From the NCBI GenBank assembly GCA_905160935.1, contig CAJHZI010000429.1, positions 1,295,501-1,359,500 of the forward strand: a stretch of 64,000 bases of DNA. The letters are read 5' to 3'. This document shows positions 2,721 through 63,905 of this stretch, one piece after another. The stretch's first letter is position 1. Each line of letters opens with the position of its first letter. The stretch comes from Enchytraeus crypticus. Lineage: Eukaryota > Annelida > Clitellata > Enchytraeida > Enchytraeidae. Both the position numbers and the translations under genes were made by a program. The notes under the pieces are model-generated. The model was not told where the DNA came from and searched no databases. It saw nothing but the letters and a program-made list of their open reading frames with translations.

Positions 2721-2757
<37 letters not shown>

Positions 2758-2848
2758 GTATTAGTATTATATTATTATTATTTAGATTAATTATTGTTAT
2801 TATTATTGTAACTCCGCGCCCTTTATATTAGTTCTATATTTCAGTTTA

Positions 2849-2884
<36 letters not shown>

Positions 2885-7561: not shown

Positions 7562-7604
<43 letters not shown>

Positions 7605-30100: not shown

Positions 30101-33100
30101 CTGAAATCGATCCAGTTTCTATGGAAACGAATAGCAGCTATCTCACCACAAAGGATGCTGTAACTGAAATTGATCACATTACCATGGTAACAAGTGGTGA
30201 ATATATTCCTAAAAAGGATACTGCAACTGAAACTGATCCTATTACCATGGTAACGAGCCGTGAATATATTCTTACGAAGGATGCTGTAACTGAAATTGAT
30301 CCTATTACCATGGTAACGAGCGGTGAACATATACCTACAAAGGATGCTGTAATTGAAACTGATCATATTGCCATGGTAACGAGTGGTGAATATATTTGTA
30401 AAAATAATGATGTAACTGAAACTGATCCTATTACCATGGTAACGAGTGGTGAATATATTTCTAAAAAGCATGCTGCGAGTGGATTAGATCCTAGGGATGT
30501 GAATACATTCGATACAGACACTACTCTTGCTGCTTCCGCTACAATTACTGATACAATTGAACAAGGTCCCGTTTCTATGGCTGCAGATATTGTCTCCATG
30601 GTAACCGATAGCGCTGTTACCTTAGTAACGAAGAATCCAGGCAGTGACGTACTGTCAGATTATATCAACCACATTGAAGTTGAGGTGGCTCATAGAAAAC
30701 CAAACAAAACCTCAGATGTCTCTCCAGCCAGTTTTGTCGACACAGGCTTCACTAGTGATCCGGCTAGTAACATGTCCATCAATTCCATCGAGATTCAGTC
30801 AACAATAATAGCTGAAACTCTAGCGTCGTCCACAACAATATCAGAGGAATTCAGCTCAAAAACTGTAAGAGGTAAAATTGCCAAAGGTAACGATGCTCAG
30901 TTCATCCCCACGTTCATACAAACAGACGCCTGGAAGTCTAGGCCGGGTGAGAGGTCACCTTCTGTTGGAAGGAAAGAAAGATTTGGAGAGAATGGTCGGA
31001 GGCCTTCGTCTAGGTCATCAGTTGAAGGACTTGGGGGTGAGGCCGAGGTGATGAAGGAGCCAGTGGGGGCCCATGATCGCTCGGTCGATGATCAGAGTGC
31101 TCTTGATCGAGAGCCAGGTGATTTCAGTCAGGTTGTTAAAGAGCAAAACAACGAGATCACCGATGATAGCACAGGAAAACTACCTGGAGCTGAATTAAGT
31201 AACGTCATTGCTGCAACAGATGATCGACTTCGTGGGATTTCAGATGAGAGAGAACCTGGAGATATTTCAGAGGATAGATCAGAAGGAGAATCGTCAATAA
31301 GAGGTGTGCTTATCCCTAAAGCTCCTCCAGCAGACGAAGGTTCAAATCCTAGTCCAGATGCAAATCAGTTTGCAGAATACTCGACTGTCAGACTTTATTC
31401 TAAAAATTCCACTTCCGGAGTCACGGAATGGTCCGACCAAGTCTCGGTGGAGTCCCAGGACTTAATTAATCTGGACGATGAACCTCTCCAGTCTTCCACA
31501 GGAATATCAAGTGACAGAAATGAGACATCCGTGGAATCAGAGTCTTCCTGGCAAGAGGTGGATCCGGAATTAAAGGATGAAAGATTTCCAGATGAGTTAG
31601 AATTCGAGGACGTTGCAGGAGTGGATTTAGCAGGAGGTGTTGCGGACGAGAGAGAGACAAACGAGAATATTTCATGTACTGAGGGGCAGGAGGGTAATGT
31701 CCATCATCAGAGTGGAAATTCCGATCATCAGAATGGAAATTCCGATCATTACAGTGGCAATTCCGATCATCACAGTGGAAATTCCGGTCATCAGAGTGAA
31801 AATTCCGATCATCACAGTGGAAAGTCTGATCATCAGAGTGGAAATTTCGATCATCAGAGTGGAAATTCCGATAATCAGAGTGGAAATTCCCATCATCAGA
31901 GTGAAAATTCCGATCGTCAGAGTGGACATTTCGGCAATTTTTCAGATCTTGAGGAAGGAAACACTAACGTAAACAACAAAGGTATCACTATGGAAGCAAA
32001 TACATCCACAGCTGACAGTGGAATATTTAGTATCATCACCAGCGTTACCACTGCTCCGTCACTTGAGCTTCAGCTTCCTGATCCTTATCCTATTCCTGAG
32101 GAACCGGAAGTCACTCCTGCCTCGGCAATCATAATCAACCTCGTGGACGACTCCTTTGCACCTGTGACTGATGCCCAGACATCCATTCGTTCCGACTTCG
32201 AAGCCATCATGAACACTGAAAGCAGCGAATGGATCAAATCAGAGGCTGGCGAAACACTTCAGGATCTAAATCTTATCAATCTAACAGATATTGATCAGAA
32301 TAAATCAGAAACACAAGCATTACATTCACCAGATGTCACTGCTATTTCCACAGACATCTCGACGGTGGAAATCTCACCTATACACAAGGAAAACGAATCC
32401 ATAACTTTTACCGGAAATGCATCTAATATATCTATCATCGTTAAAGATCACTCAGTAGTGGAACCGAGTGATTTGGGAATCAGCAACATATCCTATGACG
32501 AAACCATATCTGGGCAACATCATCATCATCACTACGATGGTCCACCTCAAGCGTTCTGCTCTTCACCTCTGCCCAACGACTACTCTCTTCCTATCAGGTT
32601 AGACTCAGAGGTTCTGGGATCAAGCATCTCATCGGGAATGACCAACGACACCTGGGATCAAATGTCTACTGGGGACTCCGACAGTCAGCCTGACACTTTC
32701 TACGACAGGTTTGAGCTGCCTGGAGGACTTGATGGCTTCCAGGTTGGACCAGGTGAGCTGGTACCGGAAGGGGAATTCGCCTCGAATGGGACCTGGATTT
32801 CCGGTGAAATAGAGAACAGTTCTGGACTTGATAGCGAGAGATATTCCGGTGGTAGCAGAAGATATTCTGAGAGTAGTACTGGAGTGGGAACCCTAGTTGA
32901 GGTGGATAATAAAGCAGGTATGGACAGTGATAACGTCAGTGATTTAATGGAAGTCAAGGAACTTCCTGAGAAGATAGAAGTTGATAAGACGGAGGCTGAT
33001 ATTGATAAGGGATTGATAGCATTGGCAGGACTATCCAGTGACACAGAGATGAGTCATACTGATGATCAGCTTAATGACGTCGCCAGTGACGACGAAGTGA

Positions 33101-34181
33101 CGTCACTGGTGGAAAATAATGTGGGAATACCGAAGGAAATGGTAAAAGAAGAATCAGAAGTAAATCGATTAGATGAGAGTATTGTAGAGCAACACATGAC
33201 AACAACGACAACAACGACAACAACAACGGAGGTTGTTGAGGAAACAACGAAGATGGAAGAAGAACAGAACAACAACAGAGAAGTTCTGCTGAGATCTCCC
33301 AACTATAGGACTGCTGTCATATTGCTACTGAGTAAGCGTTAAATTAAATCTGCATGAATCAATCAAACAGACATTCAATCAATCAAGCATGCATTCAATC
33401 AATCAAGCGGTCATTCAATCAATAAAGCAGACATTCAATCAGTCAATCAATCAAAAAAGCCGGCATTCTATCAATCAAGCGGGCATTCAATCAGTCAATC
33501 AATCAATCAAGCGGGCATTCAATCAGTCATATTTTCAATTAAGCACAAAGTCAACAAGTTAGTAACTAACTTAATAGTAAACATTTAGTCCTTTACTTAA
33601 TTAATTTTATATTTAGGAATATTTATTGTTCTATTCATTCAAACGAGCATTCGGCTAAAATTGGTTTTGTTTCTTAGATAAGTATTTTAATCTTTAAATA
33701 TCTTGTTACAGGTAACTATAATGAGTTAAATAACTTGTTACAGGTAACTATAATGAGTTAAATAACTTGTTACAGGTAACTATAATGAGTTAAATAACTT
33801 GTTACAGGTAACTATAATGAGTTAAATAACTTGTTACAGGTAACTATAATGAGTTAAATAACTTGTTACAGGTAACTATAATGAGTTAAATAACTTGTTA
33901 CAGGTAACTATAATGAGTTAAATAACTTGTTACAGGTAACTATAATGAGTTAAATAACTTGTTACAGGTAACTCTAATGAATTAAATAACTTGTTGTCGG
34001 TATCTATAATGAGTTAGATTTCTTGTTACAGTTAACTATAATGAGTTAAATTTCTTGTTACAGGTAACTGTAATGAGTTAAATTTCTTGTTAATTTTTCA
34101 TATTTCTGTTGTTTTGCTGTTTCAGGTTTTATGGCTCTGCTGCTGGCCCTGGCTATACTCCAGCTTTCTCTCACAGATTAG
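20662..34181 (+). CDS. Giant low-complexity protein with C-terminal tail anchor, five 3' exons
   Basis: Exons 20662-24115, 24383-25068, 26324-26570, 28082-33331 and 34126-34181 join in perfect phase (1, 0, 1, 1) to give 3230 codons and a TAG stop. I do not recognise the family. The chain is polar: Lys/Glu/Ser-rich in the first exon, Arg/Ser-rich in the next two, and Ser/Thr/Asp/Glu-rich in the fourth. It is probably disordered, with a 48-residue duplication (22705-22992), 25 heptads of ISSKTGE type, a ~21-residue Thr/Ile repeat and an 11-copy DHQSGNS repeat. The last 25 residues form one hydrophobic segment made across the final intron (TAVILLL + SFMALLLALAILQLSL) plus TD, implying a cytoplasmic tail-anchored protein. 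The first exon starts with an acceptor in phase 0, so the 5' end lies upstream and was not found. A giant-ankyrin-type exon or KASH protein was considered, but no diagnostic motif is present. Confidence 0.85.
22705..22992 (+). repeat. In-frame 144-bp (48-residue) tandem duplication
   Basis: Two copies begin TSKESIKPSREE and end with TDG(T/R)SSRRHDD or SSRRHDG; they are about 90% identical. It lies inside exon a. Confidence 0.95.
24116..24382 (+). other. Short GC-AG intron ending in a LINE-like (ATTCT)n tail
   Basis: The intron starts GCAAGTTC. Its 3' half reads TTTTGTGTCTTTGCTGAAAA then AATAAACATATT, followed by ATTCT repeats that end TTCCAG. That looks like a retroelement 3' end with polyadenylation signal and pentanucleotide tail. 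The tail makes up the polypyrimidine tract of the acceptor. Confidence 0.7.
24383..25068 (+). CDS. Giant protein, exon b (Arg/Ser-rich)
   Basis: Starts GEPPRIQFDNSVRRSVREVK across the junction. It contains SSEDILLLYSHRSKSPASYA and REFLKTGFEYSARPSRG, and ends with RRGRSTERRGMKKKSEKEP and WRIRGAQSVE. The donor is TTGAG|GTAGGA. The DILLLYSHRSKSPASYAREF segment is the least repetitive part of the protein and the best probe for homology. Confidence 0.88.
25150..25410 (+). mobile_element. ORF-X element, third copy (3' end only), in intron b
   Basis: GSLTSKNGSPNRVLTTALSK, VQGSHRRGGSITDEVG and FRAISPAAATSNV with a stop at 25368-25370 match the end of the first copy at about 85% or more. An AAT tract follows at 25390-25410. 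Confidence 0.85.
25411..26323. other. Intron b: simple repeats and R8 copy (minus) at 25905-26100
   Basis: CACA-rich stretch at 25500-25575 and GTGATAGAGTTATA repeats at 25655-25800. R8 is the reverse of 36330-36540 (CATGACATACCGCATGTGCT, GGTTATTAGTAATAGTTGCC, CGGCGCGGACTTAAGAATAA). ATAGGCTTTATGTGA-type short repeats lie at 26155-26250. Confidence 0.65.
26324..26570 (+). CDS. Giant protein, exon c
   Basis: VLTRTRSRSSKRHSGGYFHH, then SSSCGSSSSRRLARCAISI, then EEIMREEEKVHPALIDP. The acceptor AACCTCAG ends at 26323 and the donor is GATCCAG|GTAGCA at 26570/26571, phase 1. The donor and the last ~15 exon bases are the first unit of the array at 26555-27025. Confidence 0.85.
26555..27025 (+). repeat. 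Donor-containing tandem array (~91 bp, six units)
   Basis: Each unit contains TTTGATCCAG followed by a donor-like site. Junction positions are 26570 (GTAGCA), 26661 (GTAGTA), 26752 (GCAGCA), 26833 (TTAGTA, lost), 26924 (GTAGTA) and 27017 (GTAACT). In the exon c frame, read-through meets TGA inside the second unit's TTTGATCCAG. Confidence 0.9.
27026..28081. other. Rest of intron c; SINE-D copy at about 27750-27930
   Basis: SINE-D shows CAGTGTTCGATGTTGTCATG and GACAACAGTAGCACTTTAAT with a (TTG)n tail. TCATTGCTTGTC repeats lie at 27390-27440 and ATCA repeats at 28000-28025. No exon seen. Confidence 0.65.
28082..33331 (+). CDS. Giant protein, exon d (5250 bp, Ser/Thr/Asp/Glu-rich)
   Basis: The acceptor TTGTTAACAG ends at 28081. 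The exon opens EAAGGLVGPPRTPGVLPLKD AFF and stays open for 1749 codons. In order it contains poly-Thr stretches, 25 heptads (28360-28884), a basic Ser/Arg patch (PSKRSRSYSTSSSDRLS), the ~21-residue repeat (30100-30480), an acidic region, the His/Ser/Asn repeat (31702-31932), a His cluster QHHHHHYDG, an acidic C-terminal part and a second poly-Thr. It ends in the first half of the hydrophobic anchor. The donor is ACTGA|GTAAGC. The HHHYGDRAP motif of exon a and HHHHHYDGPP here are similar. Confidence 0.88.
28360..28884 (+). repeat. Coding 21-bp tandem array: 25 heptads (ISSKTGE)
   Basis: Units ISSK(T/I/A)G(E/D) repeat 25 times without interruption. Other frames and the opposite strand are also open here because the 21-bp unit lacks stops, which produces several long false frames. 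A Gly in most heptads argues against a classic coiled coil. Confidence 0.95.
30100..30480 (+). repeat. Coding ~63-bp array: ~21-residue repeat (TEIDPITMVTSGEYI)
   Basis: About six units of pattern T-K-D-A-x-T-E-x-D-P-I-T-M-V-T-S-G-E-Y-I. No known repeat family recognised. Confidence 0.9.
31702..31932 (+). repeat. Coding 21-bp array: 11 heptads (DHQSGNS)
   Basis: Eleven units of (D/H/G)(H/N/R)(Q/H/Y)(S/N)(G/E)(N/K/H)(S/F). It is His/Asn/Ser-rich, so possibly metal-binding or just low-complexity; no evidence for either. Confidence 0.95.
33350..33540. repeat. ATCA/ATTC simple-repeat array
   Basis: CATTCAATCAATCAAGCGGG-type ~20-24-bp units at the start of the last intron of the giant gene. Confidence 0.85.
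33700..34085 (+). repeat. 32-bp array of CAG|GTAACT sites in the last intron
   Basis: About twelve units of CTTGTTACAGGTAACTATAA + TGAGTTAAATAA. Nine carry a complete back-to-back acceptor/donor-like CAG|GTAACT, with junctions at 33711, 33743, 33775 and so on every 32 bases. The last three are degraded. The real acceptor, TGCTGTTTCAG, lies 40 bases downstream. Confidence 0.92.
34126..34181 (+). CDS. Giant protein, exon e: tail anchor and stop
   Basis: The acceptor GCTGTTTCAG ends at 34125. Joined in phase it reads SFMALLLALAILQLSLTD and TAG, completing the transmembrane segment begun by TAVILLL in exon d. The non-anchored form would end KR at 33342 if the intron were retained, so retention would remove the anchor. 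Confidence 0.85.
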
Positions 34182-49482: not shown

Positions 49483-50032
49483 CTGTTTTTTTACTTTTTA
49501 TCTGTTCCGATAAATTATACAGATAAATTGAACGATAAATTGGAAGATAATTTTGACCGTGTGTGGGTTCCGTCAGATATATCTGAACTGATATCTGTTC
49601 AGTTAAATTGTATCGTGTGTGGCCACTTTAAGTCATTTCAAAGTGGTACACAATGTCTTAACCGCTATACATAATGTATGCATTTAAATGTAATTAATCC
49701 AGACACTAACAATATTATATACATCTACAGTGAAATTATGGGCAAATTTACTTCATTAACAAGCCATTAAATATCAAATATTTAAATCGTGCAGATTAAT
49801 TATATTGTAACTCGTTATACAAATAGTCTGATTTGTTGTTTCAGCCAGTCTAACCGTCTAACTTGCCTTATGTTTGCAGAGGCGACTGATTGAAGTAAAT
49901 AAATTGATTATTATGATAATTTCCAGGCTATATGGTCAATTACAAATAGTAATCAAAGGAATCAATCAATCGATGCGTCGTTAAGAACCGCCTCATCATC
50001 AGGCGACGAAAGCGGAGGAAAAACCTTTTAAT

Positions 50033-50228
50033 ATGCCTCTATCGTTTAGGATACACCGGCCACTTTCGGCGCAAAAAATGAAGGATACTATTTTAGATAA
50101 AAGAACAAGACAACGTGGACTTATGACGAGGAGCCCAGTATTAGTAGTTGTTCTGTTGATGCTCTATACAGAGCTAGGGTCAGTGGTGAACGCTAATCCT
50201 TCTGGACAGAGCGATGACAAAGAGTCAG
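50033..50228 (+). CDS. Nrg: Nrg-like exon 1 (signal peptide)
   Basis: The likely start is ATG at 50123 (MTRSPVLVVVLLMLYTELGS, a standard signal peptide). In-frame ATGs at 50033 and 50078 would add 30 or 15 basic residues. The donor is GAGTCAG|GTATTT. The 5' UTR is not defined. Confidence 0.82.
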
Positions 50229-53200
50229 GTATTTATGTCACTTTGCTATTCAGTTAAACCATCATTCGTTATTTATCTGAGTTATGTTTCTGTGTTTTCT
50301 TGCATAGTGTAAAAAACTTCAGGTCTACTATTTTAGTAGTCTACTTTTAGGCCTAATATTTTGTTAATCTACCTTTAGGTCTACTATTTTGTTAATCTAC
50401 CTTTAGGTCTAGTATTTTATTAGTCTACTTTTATGTCTACTATTCTATCACTCGAAACACACGATGCCACTGTGCACACACATCTCAAGTGTATGGAAGG
50501 CTTCCTGTGACTCTATTAACCTGCGGCTTCCTGCAGCTATATCCTGATCATTTATCAAAGATGTTAACAAAATCATTTATTGCAGCCTAGATAAGGGGCC
50601 TAAGTTAGCGGACCTAGATTAGGGGGCCTAAATTAGGGGGCCTAAGTTAGGGGGCCTACGGTAAGGGGCCTAGTTTAGGGGCCTATATTAGGGGGCCTGG
50701 GTTAAGGGGCCTAGGATAGGGGGCCTAGATAGGGGGGATATGTTAGAGGCCTAGGTTAGGGGGCCTAGGTTAGGGGCCTAGTATCTTACCGACATCGCCA
50801 TTGGCTTTGCTCCTCTTTGTTTGAGACGCCTGTGGCAGCTGGAAGAATTTCCAGGTCGTAGCTCAAAAACCTACAGTGCAGACTTTGTAAGCCATATATA
50901 GCGCCTGAGCTCCTCCCTTTCTCTCGCTCTCAATTGCTGTGTCAACAAGACTCTCTCCCTGCAAACACTTCTGAAGACAAGCAGCTGCTATTGTTTTATA
51001 GCGGACCAAGTATAACTTAGCCCGTGCCACCTAGATTTCATTTTTCTTTTTATCCTGCAGAGGAACCTAATTGTTACTAATTATTTTATCTGTCTCTCTC
51101 TCTCTCGCTGAGCACTCTATAGACTGCGCCAGGGCTCTTACTGTTGTTCTTGTTGTTGTGTTGACTCTGTGGTTCTATCAGCCCATAGGGGCCCTCATTG
51201 ACCTCCCATGCTATATTGTGTTGACTCTGTGGTTCTGTTGTGTTAACCTCCCATGCTATGTTGTGATGACTCTGTGGTTCTATCAGCCCATAGGGGCCCT
51301 CACTGACCTCCCATGTTATATTATGTTGACTCTGTGGTTCTATCAGCCCATAGGGGCCCTCACTGACTTCCCATGCTAATTGTGCTGACTCTGTGGTTCT
51401 ATCAGCCCATAGGGGCCCTCACTGACCTCCCATGCTATGTTATGATGACTCTATGGTTCTATCAGCCCATAGGGGCCCTCACTGACCTCCCATGTTATAT
51501 TGTGTTGACTCTGTGGTTCTGTCAGCCCATAGGGGCCCTCACTGACCTCCCATGATATATTGTGTTGAATCTGTAGTTCTGTCAGCCCATAGGGGCCCTC
51601 ACTGACCTCCCATGATATATTGTGTTGAATCTGTAGTTCTGTCAACCCATAGGGGCCCTCACTGACCTCCCATGATATATTGTGTTGACTCTGTAGTTCT
51701 GTCAGCCCATAGGGGCCCTCACTGACCTCCCATACTATGTTATGATGACTCTATGGTTCTATCAGCCCATAGGGGCCCTCACGGCGCTGATCTGCTCGAC
51801 GTTTACGACGAGAAGGAGCAAGGCAACAGCCTGACGCTGCCCGAGTCCGAGAAGTTTGGTCTCGTCCCTGACGTGGACGATGATAGGCGAGATGAGGACA
51901 TGGCTCCCTGGTACGTGGTGGAGGAAGACCGTGAAGATCTCGAGACCGTGGGGAGAGTTATCCATCACGATGAGCATGAGTACCCTGTGAGCAGTGAGAT
52001 AGAGGACGACTATGATCATTTCAATAATGTTCATGTCTACTACGCTCGACATGACGTCCAAGGCAAATATTCTTCTCGTGGGGAGTATCTAGCTGATCAC
52101 AGTGAGAGAGATGATAGAAGAGATCTACCAGATGGCAGGTCCAATACAAAGAATTCGACAAGTGCAGAACTCGTTGCAAATAATACACGTTATGGGACGG
52201 TAGGATCATCTAAAGGTGCAGACATTGAGAATATCCCTTCAAAAATCAGCGACGGTAAAGTCAGAAGAAGTTATTTGAGAGCACCTTCATCTCCACACGG
52301 CTTGTCCTTAACGACAGTCCGCGGAACAGGAATTAACGACAAGTCACTTTCTAATGAGGAAGACCTAGACGGAAGATATCTCGGAAGGGATTTCACAAGC
52401 GGAAGAGCTGATGGAAGGATTTCTGCACCGGAAGTCATTGAGAGTATGTTCAGTAGAATGTTGTTGTGGAATTAACTGGAACAAACTTTCGGTTACTAAC
52501 AATCAGCTGCTGGGAATAGAAATAGACTGTAAATATGTTAACATTAGCTCTTTAACTGTTGTTAACTGTAAATATTAGCTCTTTAACGTTGTTGTTTCAA
52601 TTTAACGAATACTAACAAAGCTGGTGTTGTTTCGTAATTGTGTTGATATTTAAGTTTAACTAACATTAGGCCTATTGCAATGATATTTTTTTAACCTGTT
52701 ATTTGGCGTTGTGGCATTTGAGCTCTAATCTTTGTAATTTAGGAAGAAATTATGTACAAGGTTCTATTTTAACTTCAAAGTTCAGAAGCACAAAAAAGTA
52801 AACACGCGTTATAGTGAAATGATCAACTGTGTTGATATCTATCACTTTTTATCACCACATGTTTAAACCGTTAGGCAATTTATTCCATTTCCATGTAACC
52901 AGTCCAGTGAATGTCCGAGATTTTACTCCCAGATCAGCGCGGCTGGGATTCGAACCCACGAGGGTTCAATTCACCTGAGGATCTGTCATTTAAAACTTCA
53001 TGACGTTACCCCTACTCTATTAAGGCATTCTAGCTTCTCTTCGAGACAAAGCTTCTCTTCGAGACGACTCGACGCATTCGAGCTACCATTACACAATAAG
53101 TTACTCATCTCAAAGTCTATCTCTCTCTTAGTGTACTGCCTACTGGCAGGTCCTTGGCATATAACGCATAAACTCTTCTCTGCGTTCCGTTTTCCTCTTC

Positions 53201-56200
53201 ATGTCTTCGTATGAGTAGATCTTTAAATCATCTAGCATTCTTAATCTCGGTCTGCCTCTGTTCCTCTTTCCTTCCATTCTACTTCTATGAGCCACTTTAT
53301 AATAGTTAACAATCTCCCCTTAGAATGTGCCCTCTCCAATTCTGCTTATTATTTCTTATAGCATTACAAACTATCTGTACCCTCTCCCTTCAAGACTTCT
53401 TCATTTTTAAGTTTTTGGGCCCAGCTAATCTTTTCCATTCTTCTCCATATCCACATTTCCAACGCTTCCAGTTTCCTACGAAGATTTACCTGGCCTTACA
53501 AACTTTATAATGACGACATGAAATAATTAATTAGAGACATGCTGTGTTATTAGTAATGGTACATATATCTTACTTGACATTTAATTTAGCTTCTTTTGAT
53601 TGCATGGTGCATCTTTTGAATAAGTTATTTGATGAAAGCTCTGTTTAAATAACTATGCATACAGTGATATATTCTAACTTCATTTGATGTGAACACTAAT
53701 TGTTTAGTATTTTATTGTCGTTTAATATATGGTATTTACAATATTCTCTGGTCTATCTAATATTTAATACTTATACCTCGATATAGTCAGTGCACTATAA
53801 TATAACAGTTTTTTTCTTGTTGGTTGCTCAAAAATGACTTTTCTACAAAGAAATTTCGTTTCTTGGTCCGGTTATGATTTATTGTGTTAATATAACACAG
53901 TAATCGGTCAATGCTAAACACTTTTTAGGAATCTTTCTCTCTCTATCTCTCTCTCTCTGTCTCTCTCACTCTCTCTGCCTATCCTTATTTGTCGTTATCT
54001 TTCTCTCTCTCTCTCTCTTTCTCTCTATCTCTCTCTTATCCTCACCTCTTATTAATGTTGGTATATATGCGCATGAGTCACTTAAGTTATTTAACATATC
54101 AAGTCAGTATATCTCTTTCAGCCTAAATCATTAAATTATTAGAACAGCTGAGAAGAAATGCCTGGGTCGACCGTTGCATGTTTGGACGCATAACAGTCAT
54201 ATATTATATTAACCAAAGTACGCTGTTCATAATTCAATGAAACATTAAATAGGTAATTCACAATGTAATCTGTATATTTTTTTATAACTTCATGAAAGCT
54301 TTGAACTGATCTTTAGACTGATTTTATGTACTTTGTGTTATGTATTATGTTTTAATGTATCATGATTTTTTATGATTATTATGTTGTATTATGTATTATG
54401 ATTTTATGGATTTTGGCATTTGCATCATTTGGGACCTTATTTTTGCTCACAGATTTGAATTTGTTTCAGTAGTTGTCATGGACGACAGTGGCGTTCTGGT
54501 AGAGGTTATAATAAAAGAGTAATTGCTCTGGAGTTAAGATACTCTTTCTTGTGTGTGTTTATATGCTTGTTACTATGCTTTAAGATGCTCTTTCTTGTGT
54601 GTGTTTATATGCTTGTTACTATGCTTTAAGATACTCTTTCTTGTGTGTGTTTATATGCTTGTTACTATGCTTTAAGATGCTCTTTCTTGTGTGTGTTTAT
54701 ATGCTTGTTACTATGCTTTAAGATACTCTTTCTTGTGTGTGTTTATATGCTTGTTACTATGCTTTAAGATTCTCTTTCTTGTGTCTGTCTATATGCTCTA
54801 AGGTACACTTCTTTGTGTGTGTGTTCATATGCTTTGTTTTGTCTATTTGACAGCTTTCGGATCTCCAGTGTTTATAAGACATCCACCTGAAGAAGAAGCC
54901 TATAGACCCGGTGAACCCGTGACAATATCATGCAGAGCTACTGGTGAACCTGCTCCCACGTGAGTGTTGAGTGATGAGTGATGAGTGATTAGTGGAGAGT
55001 GATGAGTGAGTGATGAGAAATGAGTGAGTGATGAGTGGTGAGTGATGAGTGATGAGTGGTGAGTGAGTGATGAGTGAGCGAGTGAGCGAGTGAATGAATG
55101 AGTGGAGTGAATGAATGAATGAATAAATAAATGAATGAATTCATGAATGAATGAATGAACAGATAAACGAATGAACGAATGATTGAATGAACGAATGAAT
55201 GAATAAATGAACGAATGAATGAATGAATGACTTAGTGAATGAATGAATGAATAAATGAATGAATGAATGCATGAGCACCTGAAGAGCCCAGGTTGAACTC
55301 ATCACTATTGACTCACATTCTGACTCTTCTTCCAGATACCGATGGGAGAAGGATGGAGTGGATGTAGAGGAAGCTGAATTGGTTGGGATTAGAATTAATA
55401 GCACGAGCATAGACTCCTCGTTGCTCGTAGACTCGGCAGAGGGCGACCACGACGGATACTACCAGTGCCTTGCTAGCAACAAATACGGAACAGCTGTCAG
55501 CACAAGGACTAGGCTGCAGAAAGCCGGTAATCAATGAATTAATCATTCAGACATTTAACCAATCAATCAGTTAGTTAATTAATTCCTCATTCTTTAAGTC
55601 AGTCATAATATAATTAATGCGTTGCTGTCAGCTGCTGCGTCAGATCTGAGATCGAAAATAATAGTAATAGTAACAAAGGTTTAACGTCCGTTACCACATA
55701 CAATGATGTTGTTAAGGACAAAAGGAGAAGATAAGACATGAGCGGGTCTTAGCGTCTGTTTCGGTACTGCGAGGGACTTCTAGTGAAGTGGATGAAACAG
55801 CTGAATAGTGATAGACGTTCAAGTAGCAGAGGCAACTAACAGTTCATGAGTCAAGTGGAGCGATGGAAGGTTTAAAGGATATCGGCTTGAAGTTGATCTA
55901 TGAGCTCTTACTAGAATTTATTGGTTGCTTGAATGTTGTTATTTTATTTAGCTATTTATTGATATTTTGAATAAATGACTGCCTGGTTTACTGACAGTTA
56001 GATTTACATGTTGATTCAATTATGTAAATTTACATACTGTCAATTATATGATGGTCAATTTATCAAAGTTATTATAATTTTTTAAGGCCGCTGATTGGTG
56101 ACTGACTGACTGACTGACTGACTGAGTGACTGACACACTGACTGACAGACTAACTAACCGACTGACCGACCGACCGACCGATTGATTGATTGATTGATTA

Positions 56201-59200
56201 ATTGATTGATTGATTCAGAGCTGGAGTCTTTTATACCTAAGCCACTGACAGTCAACATGGTGGACGTGGGTCAGCCCCTGGTGCTCAGGTGCAACCCCCC
56301 CTACAGCTTCCCCCCAGCCCTTGTCTACTGGGGGGAGTCGAGGCAGAAGATGCATCCCATCGAGACCAGCGAGCGCATAGCACTCGACTATAACGGTACC
56401 AGCAATCCTCTTCAAATGGCTGAGCCTTCTCTAGGCTTTAGTGCAGCATTTAGGTTGCTAAAATGTTGTTCTGAGGTGGTTGCAGATTGTCTTACTCAGT
56501 TTCAGCGTAGTCGCCTCTTACAGCATATTTTACTGATAGGTCTGTAGGTTAGTGACCCGGTAAGAACACGCCTTTTAATACTATAAGCGGCATTGCCATG
56601 TTTTTTGTAGTAGGCATACTCTCTATGGCGCGTGAATGTAGAACGTATAAGTAGGAAAATATACCTTGACTTGTCATTAAGCATAATGCTAGAGGAATGC
56701 TACATTTATAATCTGAATAATAACAATATAAATGTAGCATTCGCTTAGCATTATGTCTAATGACAAGTTGAGTTACATTTTTCTACTTATCCGTTCTGCA
56801 TTCTCGCGCCATAGAGAGTAGGCCCTACTCCAAATATAGCATTAGCTGTTGTTGTAATTTGAGCGCAATTAAATACAAAGATTAGAAGAAAAACTATCAA
56901 TAGCAGATTATGACGTGTGAGTCCCAACTTTTGAATTTTATGTCTCGTCTACTCTGCATGTAATTCATCGACTACACGGGATGAAATTCCGTTACCGGCG
57001 AACTGTGTGAAAATAACTACCGTAGCAAAGTTTTACCAAGGTATTATCGTCTGATTGATTGACTGATTGATTTATTGATTAATTGATTGACTCACTGATT
57101 CATTCATTGATTGATTGATTGACCGATTGATTGATTGACTCATTGATTGATTGATTGGTTGATTGATTGATTGATTGCTGCAGGAAACATGTACTTTTCC
57201 TATGTGGACGCCTCAGACGGAAGGAACGGAAGGAAGTACGAGTGTGTGTCGTCTAACGATCTACTCAAGACAATCATGCGAGGCGACGATCAGATCATTG
57301 AGCCAAATAAAGGTGTTTACTAGCTGCAATAAATTACATTTAAACTTGAGCCAAATAAAGGTGTTTACTAGCAGCAGTAAATTTCATTTAAAACTTGAGC
57401 CAAATAAAGGTGTTTACTGGCAGAGTAAATTACATTTAAACTTGAGCTAAATAAAGGTAGGTAGGTAGGTTGTAGTGTGTTTAATGTCAAGGTCAGAAGC
57501 ACAAGGCTTCTCTTCAAGACGCTCGACACACTCGAGCTACCGTCACAAAGATTAATGTAACGGTAAGTAACAAATGTTACTTATGGATCATAAATGAGAT
57601 TGTAGCTATTCGCTACTATGTGTTTATAGATGCTATCATGGAGCCAGTTGCTCCAAAGCTCCTGTGGTAATTGCTGTTCGCTACTATGTGTTGATAGATG
57701 TTGTCATGGAGCCTGTTGCTCCAAAACTCATGTGGCACTCAGCCGATGCCACGGGTCAAGTGGTTGGACTTAAAGGTCAAAAGGTCAAAATGAAATGCAT
57801 CTTCTCAGGATAGTGAGTACAAGTACACTGACAGTACTCTTACATTTAAATAGTAGCTGTAAGTACACTGAAAGTACTCTTACATTTAAATTGTTAATAT
57901 TACTTCCAGTTGGAAATATTTTAAATTTTTCACTTGTAATTAGTAGTAAAATGCTGTTTTTAAATTACTGTTAAAGTTAAAGCCAAGTTTAACGTCGGTT
58001 TCCTGTTCTACAACATGTCAGTGGCGGGGAGAGCACTGGATTTAAGTTATAACCCTGCATCTATTTATCCACTGGCGAACAATGTGCCAACAGTCCACGG
58101 GCTCCGCAGAAATTAAATTTGTTCATTAGAATATGAGTGAAAAATTTCCCGATACCCTCTCAGATGTTGATTTTCCTCGACTTGAATGATTAGATATCAA
58201 CTTGAGAACAACTTATGAACACGGTTTTTGACTGAAAAAAAAAAAAAAAATGCTATAGGTAAGTTCTCGAATGTTTAATGGCTCCATTAAATGATAAATC
58301 CTCTAATACTTGTAATTTACTTTTACTGTAAATATCTGTGGCTCATTGGTTAGTCGTCTCGATCAAACTGTTTAACTTTATTTCATACAATCCCACACCT
58401 AAGATCAGTTTTTCTATGTTTATCCACACAGCCCGACACCTAAGATCAGTTTTTCTATGATTATCCACGCAGTCCTACCCACAAGATCAGTTTTTCTATG
58501 TTTATCCACACAGCCCCACACCTAAGATCAGTTTTTCTATGTTTATCCACGCAGTCCTACCCCTAAGGTCAATTTTTCTATGTTTATCCACGCAGCCCGA
58601 CACCTAAGGTCAGTTTTTCTCGTGTGGATCGCCCCATGGAGCGGCACATGGTCAGCCCGGATGAGGCATTCGGTCAAGAACTGGTCATTGACCCCTTGTC
58701 AACTGAAGATGTGGGTCAATATCAATGCAGTGCTACCAACTCCGCTACAGAAACCCCTGTTTCTCAGACATTTAAACTGAGCGTAGAATGTAAGCACTGT
58801 TTTATTTCTGCTCTCTATTTATCTGCATCAGCAGACGATTAAAACCAATTGATTATATCAATAAATAAGTCAGATCAATAAACCAATCAGTTGGTATGAT
58901 CAAAAATTCAGTCAGGTTAAGATAAATCTGTCAGATCAATCAATCAGTCAGGTCAGTAAATTTATAAATGCAATAAAGCAGTCAGATCAATCAATCCGTC
59001 AGATTAATAAATCAGTCAGATCAATAAATCAATAAGATCAATCCTATTGTCAGCCGACCAGATGATCAGCTTTGATGTTGTGCCTAATTGTAATCTTATC
59101 TTTCAGAAAATTTTACTGCCTTTTTTATTTTCGTTATTTTGTGGAATTTTCATGTTTCCAACTTTTTGTTTTTTCTTGATTATAGTCGATTTTGCCATGG

Positions 59201-61014
59201 ATGACGGTAACTCTCTACATCTATCGTATTGTATACTTATGTGAGTCCTGCATTGCATTGCATTGAATTGCATTCTAATATTTTTAAGTACTCCGACTTT
59301 GAATAGTATGCTGCCTTTATATATTGCATTGTATTTTTATGAAAAGTATTCTTCCGCTGCCTGTATTAATTGTATTGTATTTCAGTATGTAGTATTCTGC
59401 CACTGCCCGTATTTATGATTTATCGTACTGCATTTCAATGTATAATATTCTGACACTGGTATTTATTGTCTTATATTTCTGTGTATAGTATTCTCCACTG
59501 CCTGTATGTATTATTTTGTATTGCATTTCTGTGTATAGTGTTATCCACTGCCTGTATTGTATTCTATTTCTATGTATAATGTTCTCCACTGCCTGTATTG
59601 TATTGTATTGCATTGTATTGTATTGTATTGTATTTCTGTATGTAGCTGCCCCCTACTGGAAGGGAGAGCCCCCGCAGAATCAAAATGTTGACGAGGGGGA
59701 GGGGGCGGAATTCTCATGTCTAGTGGAGGGGACACCCACCCCCTCTGTGTCCTGGCTTGTCAATGGAAAACCCCTGCAAGGTGAAAAATAAATTCAGACT
59801 TATTCAAATAAATTAATAATTTATTTGAGTAATTTGAATAAATTCGAATTACTTTCATGCAATTCCTCGCTAGAGACGTCACTTAAATTAAATTTGAAAC
59901 TACAGAAAAAGATATGTTAAAAATATTACCTGATTTTTGTCGCTAAGTTTTAAATATGTATTTCCTATCAATTTAGCTGTTGCTAGAAATTGCTTTCTGA
60001 AATTATCTGTATAAAGTAACAGAAAATTTCAATCAATTTTTGATGCAATGTCAGAAATTCTATGCTATTGTATGTATATGATGTGTAGTATATCTAGGTT
60101 TTATTTGTATTCTTTCTGCAGATTTACCAGCGAATCCCAGAAGGTCAGTGACCGGGCACTCGATGACCTTTTCGAACGTTTCCAATGAGGACAGTCAGGT
60201 CATTCAGTGCAATGCTACAAACAGATATGGCAGCCTGTTTTATAATGTTTACCTCGTGGTCAAATGTGAGTAGGGTTACTTGTTAAATTAACTCTTGTTG
60301 TTGTTGTTGTGCGCTGATCGATCAATCAGGTTAGCCGTGATGCTGGTCTCATCGATGCTGTATATCAATAGGGGGTCCAAGGCGCATCGGCTGATCATAA
60401 TAAACTTTGTTCTTATAAATTATTATAAATTGTTATCTTTGTTCGCATAAGTTATTATAAATTGTTAGCTTTTTCGTATTATTTATTATCAGAGGCGATT
60501 AAATATTGCGTGCATGTGTGAGCCCTGAACAACTGTGCGCAGTTTACTGTTTGATTAGTGCTTGTGCTAGTGTTAGTGCTTGTGCTGGTGTTAGTGCTTG
60601 TGCTAGTGTTAGTGCTAGTGCTACTGATAATGCTAGTGAGTTTGCATGTTTTTCATAAGAGATCAAGATATTATAATATTGGGAAATTTTCTCATAGAAG
60701 CTAGAGCTTGTAACTCCTGTATTAATCTTGACATTTTTGAAATAAATAAAAAAATAAAAAAATATATAAATAAATAAATAAATAATTTATAGACCTCTCT
60801 GGAGTTAAGCAACTAGTTTGCTCTATTTCAGCCGCACCACCCACATTTCTGGAACGACCTGCCGAGATGACGAAGGTGCTAGAGGGAGGGGAGGTTACAC
60901 TGAGTTGCAGGGGAGGGGGCGCCCCCAAGCCCTATGTGGACTGGTATAGAGAGAAGCAGGATGAGAATCAGCCTACCTTCATCAGCTCTGGCACTGTGCT
61001 TAGTATCAAGGTTG

Positions 61015-61058
<44 letters not shown>

Positions 61059-62649
61059 AGTGCACTGCCTACTGGCAGGTACGTGGTATATAACGCCTCC
61101 ACTCTTCTCTGTCTTCTGCCTTCCTCTTCATTTCTACATGAGTGGGTCTTTAACTCATCTAACAACTAGAGTTGCCGCTCTAGTATCGCTAAATACACCT
61201 TTCCGGAGGCACCTGTACACCTTAAGTCTTGAAGAGAAGCCCTTCATACTTCTGATCTTGACGTTAAACCAAAATTTTAAAAAGCTAAAGGCAAGTTTAA
61301 CGTCAGTTTAATGCTCGATGGCATAAAGTGACGGAGAGAACAATGATTTCGCTCTTTTTTTATCTATTTGCTTGATTTGTTTACGTTTGAGTCAAGCAAT
61401 TGTTGAAAAATTCAAATAAATCATATAAAAAGAGTTAAATTAAGAGAGATTCGTGTGTTCTTGTTGTATTTTATCAAAGTCGATAGTAATATGAGGTTAC
61501 GCTTAGCATTTGAATCAGTAAAGACTACGATTGTCCCTAATTGAAGTTCAATCAATATAATTGATTGAACTAATATGTATAATAATCAGTATATCTAATT
61601 GTTTTTTTATTGATTTGTTGGTTCTAGGCGGCCACAGAAGCTGATGAAGGAGTATACCTTTGTTATTTGTCCAACAAGTACAATACTAATGCAACAACAG
61701 CGCGGATTCAAGTACTCAGTAAGTAAAAGGCATACTGAGATGCATTTGCATGTTAAACTCTGTTAAACAATAAACATAAAGCCTCTTGATTAAAACGTTC
61801 TGAGATTTGCCAGTTTCTCTGCTCTATAGAACGGCTTAACTTATAGTCACTAATTATTGCAATCACTATTAGATGCAATTAATGTTAGCATTACACACAA
61901 TAGTTCACCTTTCCCAGTGTATCTCAACATTCGCCTGTATATCAGTCAGTAGCTTTATGTATAACCGGCTTGATTTTGTCTCAATAGTGCTCGATGCTGT
62001 CATTGATGACTGTAGCACTTTAATTACTGTTATGGTATGTTTTTAGCGATGGTGCGGTGCAAGACTGAGCATTCATTTGTTTTATTTTCTCTGGATTATT
62101 CACTGAATCATCTATATTTTAATCTCTCCCCGATTGCTTGGCATTATTCACTGAATCATCTATATTTAAATCTCTCCCTTATTGCTCTGCATTATTCACT
62201 GAATCATCTATATTTTAATCTCTCCCTTATTGCTCTGCATTATTCACTGAATCATCTATATTTTAATCTCTCCCTTATTGCTCTGCATTATTCACTGAAT
62301 CACCTGCATTTAAATCGCTCTCATATCTAACTCCGTTGTCTTTTTTCTAAATCAGAAAAGATTTCAGTCCTGCCCGGCACCCAGGGTAACAAATCTGTCG
62401 AGGTGGGCTCTGACGTCACTCTGACGTGTGACGTCACGGCTGATCGTCATGACAACGTGGTTGTGACGTGGTGGAAGGAGGGAAGTCAGCTGTCAGCCAC
62501 CAGTGACTGGTACACGATGAGAGAGGCAGGTGGGGGGAGGTATGAGCTGATCCTCCGAGACACTGCCGTGGAGGACACTGGAGAGTTCACATGCAGAGTC
62601 CAGAGTGAAGAGGATGTCGCTGAACTTCCGGTCTACCTCATCATCCGTG
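50033..62649 (+). CDS. Nrg: Neuroglian/L1CAM-family cell adhesion gene, 5' part: signal peptide, acidic insert and six Ig domains (13 exons)
   Basis: Exons: 50033-50228, 51766-52443, 54854-54959, 55336-55526, 56219-56395, 57184-57312, 57698-57812, 58596-58789, 59646-59780, 60122-60265, 60832-61010, 61628-61718, 62356-62649. Every join is in frame. From the Met at 50123 there are 846 codons: signal peptide, acidic insert (about 36-261), Ig1 (about 265-360), Ig2 (363-460), Ig3 (470-565), Ig4 (567-659), Ig5 (661-748), Ig6 (752-846). Each Ig has its Cys pair and most have a core Trp. L1-family hallmarks are NPPYSFPPALVYW with NMYFSYVDASDG in Ig2, CIFSGYPTPKV in Ig3, SAPYW plus FSNVSNEDSQVIQCNATNRY in Ig4, and VVVTWWKEGSQ in Ig6. 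Most introns are phase 1, as usual for Ig genes. FNIII repeats, transmembrane and ankyrin-binding tail should lie to the right. Contactin fits less well (no match in Ig2 and Ig4). L1-type proteins mediate adhesion and axon guidance at the cell surface. Confidence 0.92.
50280..50795. repeat. Intron 1 arrays: ~29-bp TAGGTCTACTATTTT units and 14-15-bp GGGGCCTA units
   Basis: About five units at 50310-50450. About 13 G-rich units (GGGGGCCTAAGTTA) at 50590-50790 with regularly spaced runs of 4-6 G, partly self-complementary around GGCC. Confidence 0.88.
51080..51765 (+). repeat. 60-bp acceptor-containing tandem array before exon 2
   Basis: About ten units, each with GGTTCTATCAGCCCATAGGG. Acceptor-like CAG ends at 51181, 51286, 51346, 51405, 51465, 51525, 51585, (51645 lost, CAA), 51705 and 51765. 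Only the last continues into open exon 2; the others run CCCTCACTGACC, which is a stop in the exon frame. Confidence 0.93.
51766..52443 (+). CDS. Nrg: Nrg-like exon 2: 225-residue acidic, probably disordered N-terminal insert
   Basis: AHRGPHGADLLDVYDEKEQG opens it. Acidic stretches (DVDDDRRDEDMAPWYVVEED), two N-glycosylation sequons (NST, NNT), dibasic KVRRSY and EVIE at the end follow. No Cys and no Ig pattern. The donor is ATTGAGA|GTATGT. Known L1-family proteins have only a short segment between signal peptide and Ig1, so this exon is unusual. Phase 1 on both sides means it could be skipped without frame loss. Confidence 0.85.
52444..54853. other. Intron 2: SINE-B (-), LINE-AG (-), SINE-D (+) and 46-bp array
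   Basis: SINE-B 52797-53026 (full length, ending near CTCTATTAAGGC). LINE-AG 53118-53505 (TATCTCTCTCTTAGTGTACT, then decayed RT C-terminus). CT-rich 53935-54045. SINE-D about 54440-54515. Five and a part units of ACTCTTTCTTGTGTGTGTTT + ATATGCTTGTTACTATGCTT + TAAGAT at 54540-54840. The array leads into the acceptor of exon 3. Confidence 0.8.
54854..54959 (+). CDS. Nrg: Nrg-like exon 3 (Ig1, first half)
   Basis: TFGSPVFIRHPPEEEAYRPG then EPVTISCRATGEPAPT. The acceptor CTATTTGACAG ends at 54853 and the donor is CCCAC|GTGAGT, phase 2. Contains the first Ig1 Cys. Confidence 0.92.
54960..55290. repeat. Intron 3: donor-like GTGAGTGAT array, then (GAAT)n
   Basis: Starting at the donor itself, GTGAGTGTTGAGTGATGAGT continues as GAGTGATGAGTG units to about 55090, then GAATGAAT tetranucleotides. 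The array includes several further GTGAGT sites. Confidence 0.85.
55336..55526 (+). CDS. Nrg: Nrg-like exon 4 (Ig1, second half)
   Basis: TYRWEKDGVDVEEAELVGI with the core Trp, sequon NST, then AEGDHDGYYQCLASNKYGTA and TRTRLQKA. The acceptor CTTCTTCCAG ends at 55335 and the donor is AAAGCCG|GTAATC. Confidence 0.93.
55527..56218. other. Intron 4
   Basis: A SINE-core-like piece at about 55675-55725 (GGTTTAACGTCCGTTACCAC). GACT then GATT tetranucleotide repeats at 56095-56215 run directly into the acceptor. No exon. Confidence 0.7.
56219..56395 (+). CDS. Nrg: Nrg-like exon 5 (Ig2, first half)
   Basis: ELESFIPKPLTVNMVDVGQP then LVLRCNPPYSFPPALVYWGE and TSERIALDYN. C-x-P-P-x-x-x-P-P-x-x-x-Y-W is characteristic of L1-family Ig2. 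The acceptor GATTGATTCAG ends at 56218 and the donor is TATAACG|GTACCA. Confidence 0.93.
56608..56832. repeat. Long inverted repeat (foldback element) in intron 5
   Basis: The left arm 56608-56710 (CATACTCTCTATGGCGCG, CTTGTCATTAAGCATAATGC, GGAATGCTACATTTATA) pairs with the right arm 56727-56832 (TATAAATGTAGCATTCGC, GCATTATGTCTAATGACAAG, CGCGCCATAGAGAGTA). The arms are about 103 bases and roughly 85% complementary, with a 16-base spacer. No transposase; a MITE-like foldback is the likely nature. Confidence 0.88.
57184..57312 (+). CDS. Nrg: Nrg-like exon 6 (Ig2, second half)
   Basis: GNMYFSYVDASDGRNGRKYE then CVSSNDLLKTIMRGDDQIIE and PNK. The acceptor GATTGCTGCAG ends at 57183 after a GATT tract. 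The donor is AATAAAG|GTGTTT at 57312/57313 and is itself repeated downstream. Confidence 0.92.
57300..57460 (+). repeat. Donor-containing 48-bp array after exon 6
   Basis: GAGCCAAATAAAG|GTGTTT recurs with junctions at 57312, 57360 and 57409. A diverged fourth, GAGCTAAATAAAG|GTAGGT, is at 57456. Confidence 0.93.
57457..57580 (-). repeat. R4 copy in intron 6
   Basis: GGTAGGTTGTAGTGTGTTTA, GGTCAGAAGCACAAGGCTTC and GAGCTACCGTCACAAAGATT. It abuts the last donor-like unit. Confidence 0.8.
57590..57740 (+). repeat. Two-copy acceptor duplication before exon 7 (68 bp)
   Basis: GCTACTATGTGTTTATAG|ATG at 57629 and GCTACTATGTGTTGATAG|ATG at 57697, each followed by ATGGAGCC(A/T)GTTGCTCC. From the upstream copy the frame stops at TGGTAA (57665-57667), so only the downstream acceptor makes protein. 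Confidence 0.92.
57698..57812 (+). CDS. Nrg: Nrg-like exon 7 (Ig3, first half)
   Basis: DVVMEPVAPKLMWHSADATG then QVVGLKGQKVKMKCIFSG. The acceptor TGTTGATAG ends at 57697 and the donor is GGATA|GTGAGT, phase 2, completed as Tyr by exon 8 to give CIFSGYPTP. Confidence 0.9.
57965..58110 (-). repeat. SINE-C-related copy, diverged
   Basis: AAGTTTAACGTCGGTTTCCT then ATGTCAGTGGCGGGGAGAGC, the core in antisense. The rest of intron 7 (58110-58385) has an A run at 58233-58249 and no exon. Confidence 0.55.
58385..58595 (+). repeat. 41-bp acceptor-containing tandem array before exon 8
   Basis: Acceptor-like sites end at 58431, 58472, 58513, 58554 and 58595, exactly 41 bases apart. Each is followed by exon-start-like CC(C/T)(A/G/T)AC(A/C)C(C/T)(A/T)AAG(A/G)TCA and TTTTTCTATG. 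A decayed unit precedes at about 58390. 41 is not a multiple of three, so decoys shift the frame. Confidence 0.94.
58596..58789 (+). CDS. Nrg: Nrg-like exon 8 (Ig3, second half)
   Basis: YPTPKVSFSRVDRPMERHMV, EAFGQELVIDPLSTEDVGQY, QCSATNSATETPVSQTFKLS and VE. The acceptor ATCCACGCAG ends at 58595 and the donor is GTAGAAT|GTAAGC. Confidence 0.93.
58790..59645. other. Intron 8: ATCAATC and GTCAGATCAATAAATC repeats, then an imperfect acceptor-like array
   Basis: CAGATCAAT-type repeats lie at 58850-59040. At about 59330-59645, imperfect 41-70-bp units contain TATTTCTGTGTATAGT followed by CCACTGCCTGTATT, similar to the true junction TATTTCTGTATGTAG|CTGCCCCC. TTGTATTG-type repeats intervene. Confidence 0.7.
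59646..59780 (+). CDS. Nrg: Nrg-like exon 9 (Ig4, first half)
   Basis: SAPYWKGEPPQNQNVDEGEG then AEFSCLVEGTPTPSVSWLVN and GKPLQ. APYW at the Ig3/Ig4 border is an L1-family signature. The donor is CTGCAAG|GTGAAA. Confidence 0.93.
60122..60265 (+). CDS. Nrg: Nrg-like exon 10 (Ig4, second half)
   Basis: DLPANPRRSVTGHSMTFSNV, SNEDSQVIQCNATNRYGSLF and YNVYLVVK, with sequons NVS and NAT. The acceptor CTTTCTGCAG ends at 60121 and the donor is GTCAAAT|GTGAGT. Confidence 0.94.
60266..60831. other. Intron 10: 18-bp GTGCTAGTGTTAGTGCTT array and AAAT repeats
   Basis: The array lies at about 60555-60640. AAATAAATAAAT lies at 60740-60790. A short R-like piece and TTG tract at 60290-60310. No exon. Confidence 0.75.
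60832..61010 (+). CDS. Nrg: Nrg-like exon 11 (Ig5, first part)
   Basis: SAPPTFLERPAEMTKVLEGG, EVTLSCRGGGAPKPYVDWYR, then ISSGTVLSIK. The acceptor CTCTATTTCAG ends at 60831. The donor ATCAAG|GTTGCC is weak but phase 0 fits exon 12. A LINE-AG tail begins about six bases after it. Confidence 0.9.
61011..61165 (-). mobile_element. LINE-AG 3' end inserted at the exon 11 donor
   Basis: (CT)n at 61015-61058 then CAGTGCACTGCCTACTGGCA and GGTACGTGGTATATAACGCC, ending near TGGGTCTTTAACTCATCTAA. The element contains GGCAG|GTACGT at 61078, a better donor by eye than the native site, but its use would break the frame with exon 12. Confidence 0.88.
61166..61627. other. Rest of intron 11: R4 fragment and SINE core
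   Basis: R4-like GTCTTGAAGAGAAGCCCTTC at about 61228. SINE-core-like AAAGGCAAGTTTAACGTCAG at about 61288. The remainder is unassigned. Confidence 0.55.
61628..61718 (+). CDS. Nrg: Nrg-like exon 12 (Ig5, end)
   Basis: AATEADEGVYLCYLSNKYNT then NATTARIQVL with the second Ig5 Cys and sequon NAT. The acceptor TTGGTTCTAG ends at 61627 and the donor is GTACTCA|GTAAGT. Confidence 0.93.
61719..62355. other. Intron 12: SINE-D tail at about 61965-62030 and 48-bp array
   Basis: SINE-D shows ATAGTGCTCGATGCTGTCAT and TGATGACTGTAGCACTTTAA. Five units of ATTATTCACTGAATCATCTA + TATTTTAATCTCTCCC lie at about 62090-62310, ending 45 bases before the exon 13 acceptor. Confidence 0.8.
62356..62649 (+). CDS. Nrg: Nrg-like exon 13 (entire Ig6)
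   Basis: KKISVLPGTQGNKSVEVGSD, VTLTCDVTADRHDNVVVTWW, KEGSQLSATSDWYTMREAGG, YELILRDTAVEDTGEFTCRV and ELPVYLIIR. One exon covers a complete Ig fold with a tandem Trp pair typical of L1 Ig6. The acceptor CTAAATCAG ends at 62355 and the donor is ATCCGTG|GTGAGT. Confidence 0.94.
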
Positions 62650-63905
62650 GTGAGTTCTTCACTAGATGATTGTGTTATAGTGTACCTCATCATACGTGGT
62701 ATGAGTACTTCACTAGATGATTGTGTTATAGTGTAACTCATCATACGTGGTATGAGTACTTCACTATCTGTTACCTCATCATACGTGGTGTGGGTACTTC
62801 ACTATCTGTTACCTCATCATACGTGGTATGAGTACTTCACTATCTGTTACCTCATCATACGTGGTATGAGTACTTCACTAGCTCTTACCTCATCATACGT
62901 GGTATGAGTACTTCACTAGCTCTTACTTCATCATACGTAGTATGAGTACTTCACTATCTGTTACCTCATCATACGTGGTGTGGGTACTTCACTATCTGTT
63001 ACCTCATCATACGTGGTATGAGTACTTCACTATCTGTTACCTCATCATACGTGGTATGAGTACTTCACTAGCTCTTACCTCATCATACGTGGTATGAGTA
63101 CTTCACTATCTGTTACCTCATCGTACGTGGTGTGAGTCCTTCACTAGCTCTTACCTCATCATACGTGGTATGAGTACTTCACTATCTGTTACCTCATCGT
63201 ACGTGGTGTGAGTACTTCACTAGCTCTTACTTCATCATACGTGATGTGAGTACTTCTCTTACCTCGTCATCTTCACTACGTGGTATGAGTACTTCACTAT
63301 CTGTTACATCATCGTACGTGGTGTGAGTACCTTCACTAGCTCTACCTCATCATACGTGGTATGAGTACTTCACTATCGTTACCTCATCGTACGTGGTGTG
63401 AGTACTTCACTAGCTCTTACTTCATCATACGTGGTGTGAGTACTTCACTAGCTCTTACCTCATCATACGTGGTATGAGTACTTCACTAGCTCTTACCTCA
63501 TCATACGTGGTATGAGTATTCACTATCTGTTACTCATCGTACGTGGTTGAGTACTTCACTAGCTCTTACCTCATCATACGTGGTATGAGTACTTCACTAT
63601 CTGTTACCTCATCGTACGTGGTATGAGTACTTCACTAGCTCTTACCTCATCATACGTGGTATGAGTACTTCACTAGCTCTTACTTCATCATACGTGGTAT
63701 GAGTACTTCACTAGCTCTTACTTCATCATACGTGGTATGAGTACTTCACTAGCTCTTACTTCATCATACGTGGTATGAGTACTTCACTAGCTCTTACTTC
63801 ATCATACGTGGTATGAGTACTTCACTAGCTCTTACTTCATCATACGTGGTATGAGTACTTCACTAGCTCTTACTTCATCATACGTGGTATGAGTACTTCA
63901 CTAGC
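62636..63905 (+). repeat. 38-bp donor-containing tandem array after exon 13
   Basis: About 33 units derived from the exon 13 end: CCTCATCATACGTG|GTATGA followed by GTACTTCACTA(G/T)CT(C/G)TTA. The first units are longer (about 55 bp, with GATGATTGTGTTATAGTGTA). Units alternate between subtypes, indicating expansion in blocks. The last 95 bases of the window are unassigned. Confidence 0.95.

Follow-up and report, generated by a model that had tools for sequence, protein, structure and literature searches.

Tandem arrays that copy splice junctions in genes of the annelid Enchytraeus crypticus

In Enchytraeus crypticus, roughly one in seven splice junctions of the genes sampled is contained in a short tandem array that copies the exon-intron boundary. 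The sampled genes are an L1/neuroglian-type adhesion gene, a PGGHG-type glucosidase gene and a giant low-complexity gene, all wholly or partly contained in a 64,000-nucleotide stretch of the 524 Mb assembly (C336:1295501-1359500, hereafter the window), together with dynein heavy-chain genes from elsewhere in the assembly. Head-to-tail copies of a unit that contains the boundary were found at 8 of the 45 window junctions, at 4 of 27 further adhesion and glucosidase junctions of the same contig outside the window, and at 12 of 90 dynein heavy-chain junctions. The arrays are probably the fallout of a high rate of tandem duplication combined with tolerance, through which copies that straddle a junction survive.

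Boundary-spanning copies in the window

Copies were sought by gapped alignment of 50 bases centred on each junction, with a reach of 1 kb and a listing threshold of 17; in a random Markov control, 3 of 534 points attained this threshold and none (0/534) attained 19. The raw listing held 9 of the 45 junctions, from which the adhesion exon 5 acceptor was dropped because its match was a TGAT repeat more than 900 bp distant. The remaining eight (adhesion 5, giant 1, glucosidase 2) each have a best score of at least 22. On the forward strand of the adhesion gene, the last copy of a 60-bp array of about nine copies (51154..51782) contains the exon 2 acceptor (exon start 51766), for which nine spanning copies score 28 to 42. 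The exon 6 donor (exon end 57312) lies in the first copy of a 48-bp array (57298..57458), the exon 7 acceptor (exon start 57698) in the second copy of a 68-bp duplication (57605..57735), and the exon 8 acceptor (exon start 58596) in the last of the 5.5 copies of a 41-bp array (58395..58620). At 62634..63905, a 51-bp unit (2.6 copies) is followed by a 38-bp unit (30.8 copies), and the first copy contains the exon 13 donor (exon end 62649). The giant gene, also on the forward strand, has its exon c donor (exon end 26570) in the first copy of a 91-bp array (5.2 copies, 26558..27020). On the reverse strand, the glucosidase exon 3 acceptor (start 5727) is associated with a 102-bp duplication with a TGAT repeat (approximately 5680..5850), and copies of the exon 4 start (start 4604) lie between TGAT repeats (approximately 4560..4945). 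At exon 4, the copy at 151 (score 22) lacks an AG at the expected position or up to 3 bases from it; an AG slightly further along and a third copy were recognized by eye.

Placement of the boundaries relied on reading frame, splice signals and homologs (PDB neurofascin, PGGHG, P0001, P0054). Homologs fix five of the eight duplicated junctions: adhesion 6, 7 and 8 through P0001 – with the exon 8 junction peptide, GY joined to PTPKV, aligned to GYPTPT – and glucosidase 3 and 4 through P0054. For the adhesion exon 13 donor the homolog alignment is concordant and the choice rests on a strong GTGAGT donor, while the adhesion exon 2 and giant exon c junctions were placed by frame, phase and signals without a homolog. 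Acceptor copies lie upstream and donor copies downstream, and the full exon is joined to the outermost copy, which is the layout that a tandem duplication across a boundary must leave. Where homologs fix the junction, no residues encoded by the array are required in the predicted protein. The preliminary description of this DNA, which reported arrays at splice junctions of all three genes, thus holds for the adhesion exon 2, 7 and 8 acceptors and exon 6 and 13 donors, the giant exon c donor and the glucosidase exon 3 acceptor, to which the glucosidase exon 4 acceptor is an addition. Its two weaker cases fall away: the arrays before exon 9 stop 11 bp upstream with no spanning copy, and a GTGA-type array starts at the exon 3 donor with the exon side unrepeated. 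Nor does each unit start from boundary sequence, as had been proposed; in the six arrays that Tandem Repeats Finder (TRF) lists across a window junction, the exonic part amounts to 13 to 38 bp, or 0.14 to 0.56 of the unit.

The adhesion gene (50078..62649, forward strand) has exons 1-13 in the window and runs beyond it. These exons (50078-50228, 51766-52443, 54854-54959, 55336-55526, 56219-56395, 57184-57312, 57698-57812, 58596-58789, 59646-59780, 60122-60265, 60832-61010, 61628-61718 and 62356-62649) form a single open frame of 861 codons with consistent phases throughout. The protein aligns with neurofascin over residues 281-858 (E 3.7e-71) and with the Joint Genome Institute (JGI) protein P0001 (43%), which is closer than the best relatives of named species, those of Capitella teleta (36%) and Lineus longissimus (34%). 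Exon 2 (51766-52443) is acidic, spans 226 codons (678 bases) with phase 1 on both sides, and has no counterpart in P0001; its skipping would keep the frame, and it is possibly a lineage-specific cassette exon. The glucosidase gene (583..8069, reverse strand) likewise extends past the window, within which exons 1-6 lie at 8069-7810, 6284-6154, 5727-5617, 4604-4385, 3188-2891 and 809-583; it matches PGGHG (E 1.7e-27) and P0054 (46%). Exons a-e of the giant gene (20662..34181, forward strand) were placed on frame and signals only, at 20662-24115, 24383-25068, 26324-26570, 28082-33331 and 34126-34181. When the open frames in giant-gene exons a-d were scanned against Pfam, with no wider search made, no family exceeded the cut-off. 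The last intron of this gene holds a 32-bp array of 12.5 copies (33694-34092), most of which read CTTGTTACAG followed by GTAACT, an acceptor and a donor consensus back to back.

Recurrence on other contigs

Outside the window, adhesion exons 14-23 and glucosidase exons 7-10 were read on C336 with P0001 and P0054, using an exon-joining script that first recovered two known window introns. The four junctions with copies are the adhesion exon 19 donor (54 bp, 7 copies) and exon 20 donor (weak, score 20) and the glucosidase exon 7 acceptor (46 bp, 12 copies) and exon 10 acceptor (3 copies). For the dynein sample, the AAA_6 family (PF12774) matched 96 places in the assembly, and an intronless frame of 766 amino acids in locus L015 (C178:635275-639027) served as the guide for mapping the introns of other dynein genes. 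Of 50 joins tried, 45 were used; in one case no join was obtained, and four others did not pass the rule on score or margin. The sample of 45 introns and 90 junctions comes from 15 contigs. The script had earlier discarded overlapping matches and those that failed to advance, and low-margin joins may hide duplicated junctions. The guide frame itself is 67 to 85% identical to the exons of an intron-bearing dynein heavy-chain gene on C230, and is possibly a retrocopy or a case of intron loss.

The 12 dynein junctions with copies are distributed over seven contigs, which with C336 brings the contigs carrying junction copies to eight. At a donor on C775, 25 exonic bases are repeated exactly, and an acceptor on C196 has three copies upstream; one of the 12 cases, an acceptor on C519, is weak and distant (score 20, 881 bp away). 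An independent origin of the arrays, already suggested in the preliminary description, is supported because the units differ in both length and sequence and because the phenomenon recurs on other contigs.

Duplication, tolerance and alternative explanations

In the reading that we favor, short intronic tandem duplications would form and expand at a high rate, and some would straddle a splice junction by happenstance. Such a duplication could survive since the copy at its outer edge would still link the entire exon to an intact splice site. The remaining copies would be ignored and, lying in the intron, be spliced out with it; drift would have fixed the duplications. Selection would purge duplications in coding exons, except where the unit length preserves the frame. 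In the window genes 36.5% of the intron sequence is taken up by arrays, and in the dynein introns 31.7%. When each founding unit is counted once, the duplicated fraction is 0.087 in introns (8.4% in dynein introns), 4.1% in intergenic DNA and 0.006 in the exon interiors of the adhesion and glucosidase genes (272 points). The exons of the giant gene contain four non-simple arrays, at 28346-28885 (21 bp), 30150-30475 (63 bp), 31703-31930 (21 bp) and 22705-22990 (144 bp), with unit lengths that are all divisible by 3. That these units keep the frame, and that arrays are nearly absent from the interiors of adhesion and glucosidase exons, points to filtering by selection. Copies occur at 12 of 81 donors and 13 of 81 acceptors, the latter including two weak distant TGAT matches; with the boundary at varying positions in the unit and donors and acceptors alike, there is no hint of a process anchored on one signal.

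Several results weigh against chance straddling as a full account. Against an intron background of about 8.5%, defined as intron DNA counted once per founding unit, the pooled data show copies at 25 of 160 junctions, a ratio of 1.80 (1.23 to 2.38 in a bootstrap that resampled introns, with two mixed introns left out). The independent data give 15 of 114 against 8.4%, a ratio of 1.56 (0.95 to 2.2; P(ratio<=1) 0.036). With the reach cut to 700 bp, at which the distant exon 5 and C519 matches are lost, the independent ratio is 1.47 (14/114; 0.85 to 2.07), and at a score of 35 it is 1.36 (8/117 against 5.0%). The excess of junction copies over the intron rate in independent data is about 1.5-fold and borderline. 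A repeat-birth model, in which the founding unit of each array is assigned a random position, either in the intron of that array or in a pooled intron, leads to an excess in the window, where 6 of 26 or 27 arrays straddle a junction against 0.7 to 2.3 expected (p 0.0008 to 0.037). The same model finds 2 of 16 arrays against 1.1 expected on C336 outside the window and 4 of 29 against 3.8 in dynein; this lack of excess is weak evidence because, of the junctions where alignment had found copies, TRF recovered just 2 of 4 on C336 and 4 of 12 in dynein. A circular-shift coverage model, in which the array map of the window is rotated, has the opposite sign (6 of 43 against 10.6 expected), so the answer on a junction excess depends on the null. 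The two models disagree because the birth model counts founding events and the circular shift counts array length. Part of the excess may also be a detection effect, because constraint on the real copy could slow its divergence and keep old duplications recognizable for longer.

Two readings would give splice junctions a more active part. In one, which we hold to be unlikely, junctions are both favored birthplaces and refuges of repeats: splice-signal repeats, namely branch-point-like TGAT runs and copies of donors and acceptors, would seed junction duplications, arrays in the correct order and strand would be kept, and many exons of this lineage would now have multi-copy splice sites at their flanks, of which the outermost copy would be used. 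In the other, which appears slightly less likely still, duplication is aimed at junctions through slippage at R-loops or on spliceosome-bound nascent RNA, making them mutational hot spots. Such targeting, raised in the preliminary description, is not established. The window birth-model excess, the pooled 1.8-fold excess and the borderline excess of about 1.5-fold in independent data speak for it, although the window test reuses the data that prompted the idea and the birth model, a blunt test outside the window, has no excess there. Array coverage by distance in the window genes has no peak at the junction; it is greatest 80 to 130 bp inside introns, with wide errors, and declines through the junction into the exon. 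The variable position of the boundary in the unit and the likeness of donors and acceptors also argue against a targeted process.

Selection might instead retain splice-signal repeats if extra branch-point-like, acceptor or donor copies aided exon recognition, which we regard as improbable. The pattern TGA[TC]TGA[TC] occurs within the last 40 bases before 20 of 81 acceptors (dynein 15/45, others 5/36), for example at 56180-56218 and 57052-57183 in the window, compared with 324 of 6502 overlapping random intron 40-mers (Fisher p 3e-9). Examples come from the adhesion, glucosidase and dynein genes. There is a strand bias of 20 versus 2, the reverse complement being found at 2 of 81 acceptors, and the donor side likewise has 2 of 81. 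TTGAT is compatible with the general branch-site pattern, because of which TGAT arrays at acceptors may be tolerated or favored; these TGAT/TGAC runs are possibly repeated branch sites. A literature search on TGAT-like repeats at branch sites returned no recognizable equivalent. However, the motif is also frequent at -120 to -90 (11/81), beyond the branch zone, and its enrichment demonstrates a strand preference rather than a benefit of junction copies. In the inner copies the GT and AG columns remain intact, at 0.89 to 1.0 where the whole arrays average 0.95 (exon 2) and 0.93 (exon 13); no conclusion is drawn from this. On a fair leave-one-out splice-site score, duplicated junctions and the remainder show no difference (p 0.80), and the acceptor pyrimidine count leans lower at duplicated ones (p 0.09). 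An initial indication of weak sites at duplicated junctions, with seven of eight below the median, was rejected; it had scored left-out sites against training sites. The adhesion exon 8 marker was not found in the consensus of its array.

We attach very little weight to the idea that the inner copies, serving as decoys or poison sites, adjust expression via nonsense-mediated decay. The preliminary description had noted an early stop or frame shift from decoy use in the cases checked; every GT or AG decoy tested, at seven junctions, leads to a premature stop, and at several junctions the inner sites score close to the real one. These stops say little, because an intron read as exon would usually give them. 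Decoy exons carry two splice sites; the copies displayed here repeat one splice boundary, apparently without forming an exon delimited by both an acceptor and a donor. Finally, tandem arrays are difficult to assemble, yet an assembly artefact is scarcely credible here, given copies that diverge by substitutions and indels, units that differ between sites, and occurrence on eight contigs.

Neighboring repeats, known systems and significance

A Pfam scan of ten window frames found nothing above the cut-off, and Rfam gave no match. A related open frame is present in two copies at 6253-7434, in glucosidase intron 1, and at 15432-15859, and is probably a mobile element. A dispersed motif, GTCAGTGACGGGYGAGCC, recurs four times with at most one mismatch (3984-4001, 20300-20317, 20562-20579 and 35732-35749) and probably belongs to a short interspersed nuclear element (SINE). 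Viral contigs searched with the SINE-like pattern of the window yielded one contig, which has neither similarity to the window nor tandem arrays.

Related arrangements exist elsewhere. Human segmental-duplication genes have internal tandem repeats at exon-intron boundaries that are able to alter splicing (PMC2812944), and a potato RNA-dependent RNA polymerase (RdRp) gene gained an intron through a tandem duplication across an intron-exon boundary (PMC4974935). The preliminary statement that no named system resembles these arrays was consequently too strong. The human repeats resemble those described here in that the position of the tandem units is the exon-intron boundary; they differ in copy number between paralogs, and RNA supports most of 27 intron changes, whereas the present arrays, found in genomic DNA, affect the stated share of junctions in the sampled genes (PMC2812944). 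In potato, too, the unit spans an acceptor and copies the branch site, tract and AG, and duplication across the boundary, which is the basis of that intron gain, is present here; the potato case is a single duplication with an RNA-supported new intron, while here we find mostly arrays and claim no new intron (PMC4974935). The 38-bp variable number tandem repeat (VNTR) of TERT and that of ABCA7 are reported to be intronic tandem arrays that affect splicing (PMC3948165, PMC5954066), and the decoy exons and detained introns of OGT share the idea of non-productive sites competing with real ones (PMC12017769). A literature search of titles and abstract openings, with most subscription journals outside its scope, found no survey of junction-spanning arrays besides PMC2812944. 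The novelty is the frequency of junction-spanning arrays.

Studies of splice sites usually rely on single decoys. The arrays of E. crypticus are natural series of up to about 30 slightly differing copies of one boundary, and they offer a test of how cells disregard decoys. Rules of splice choice such as "first AG" or "nearest donor to the exon" are directly testable on such series by RNA sequencing (RNA-seq). Gene predictors may choose the wrong copy of an array. For the genes that carry them, the arrays are raw material for changes in intron and exon length.
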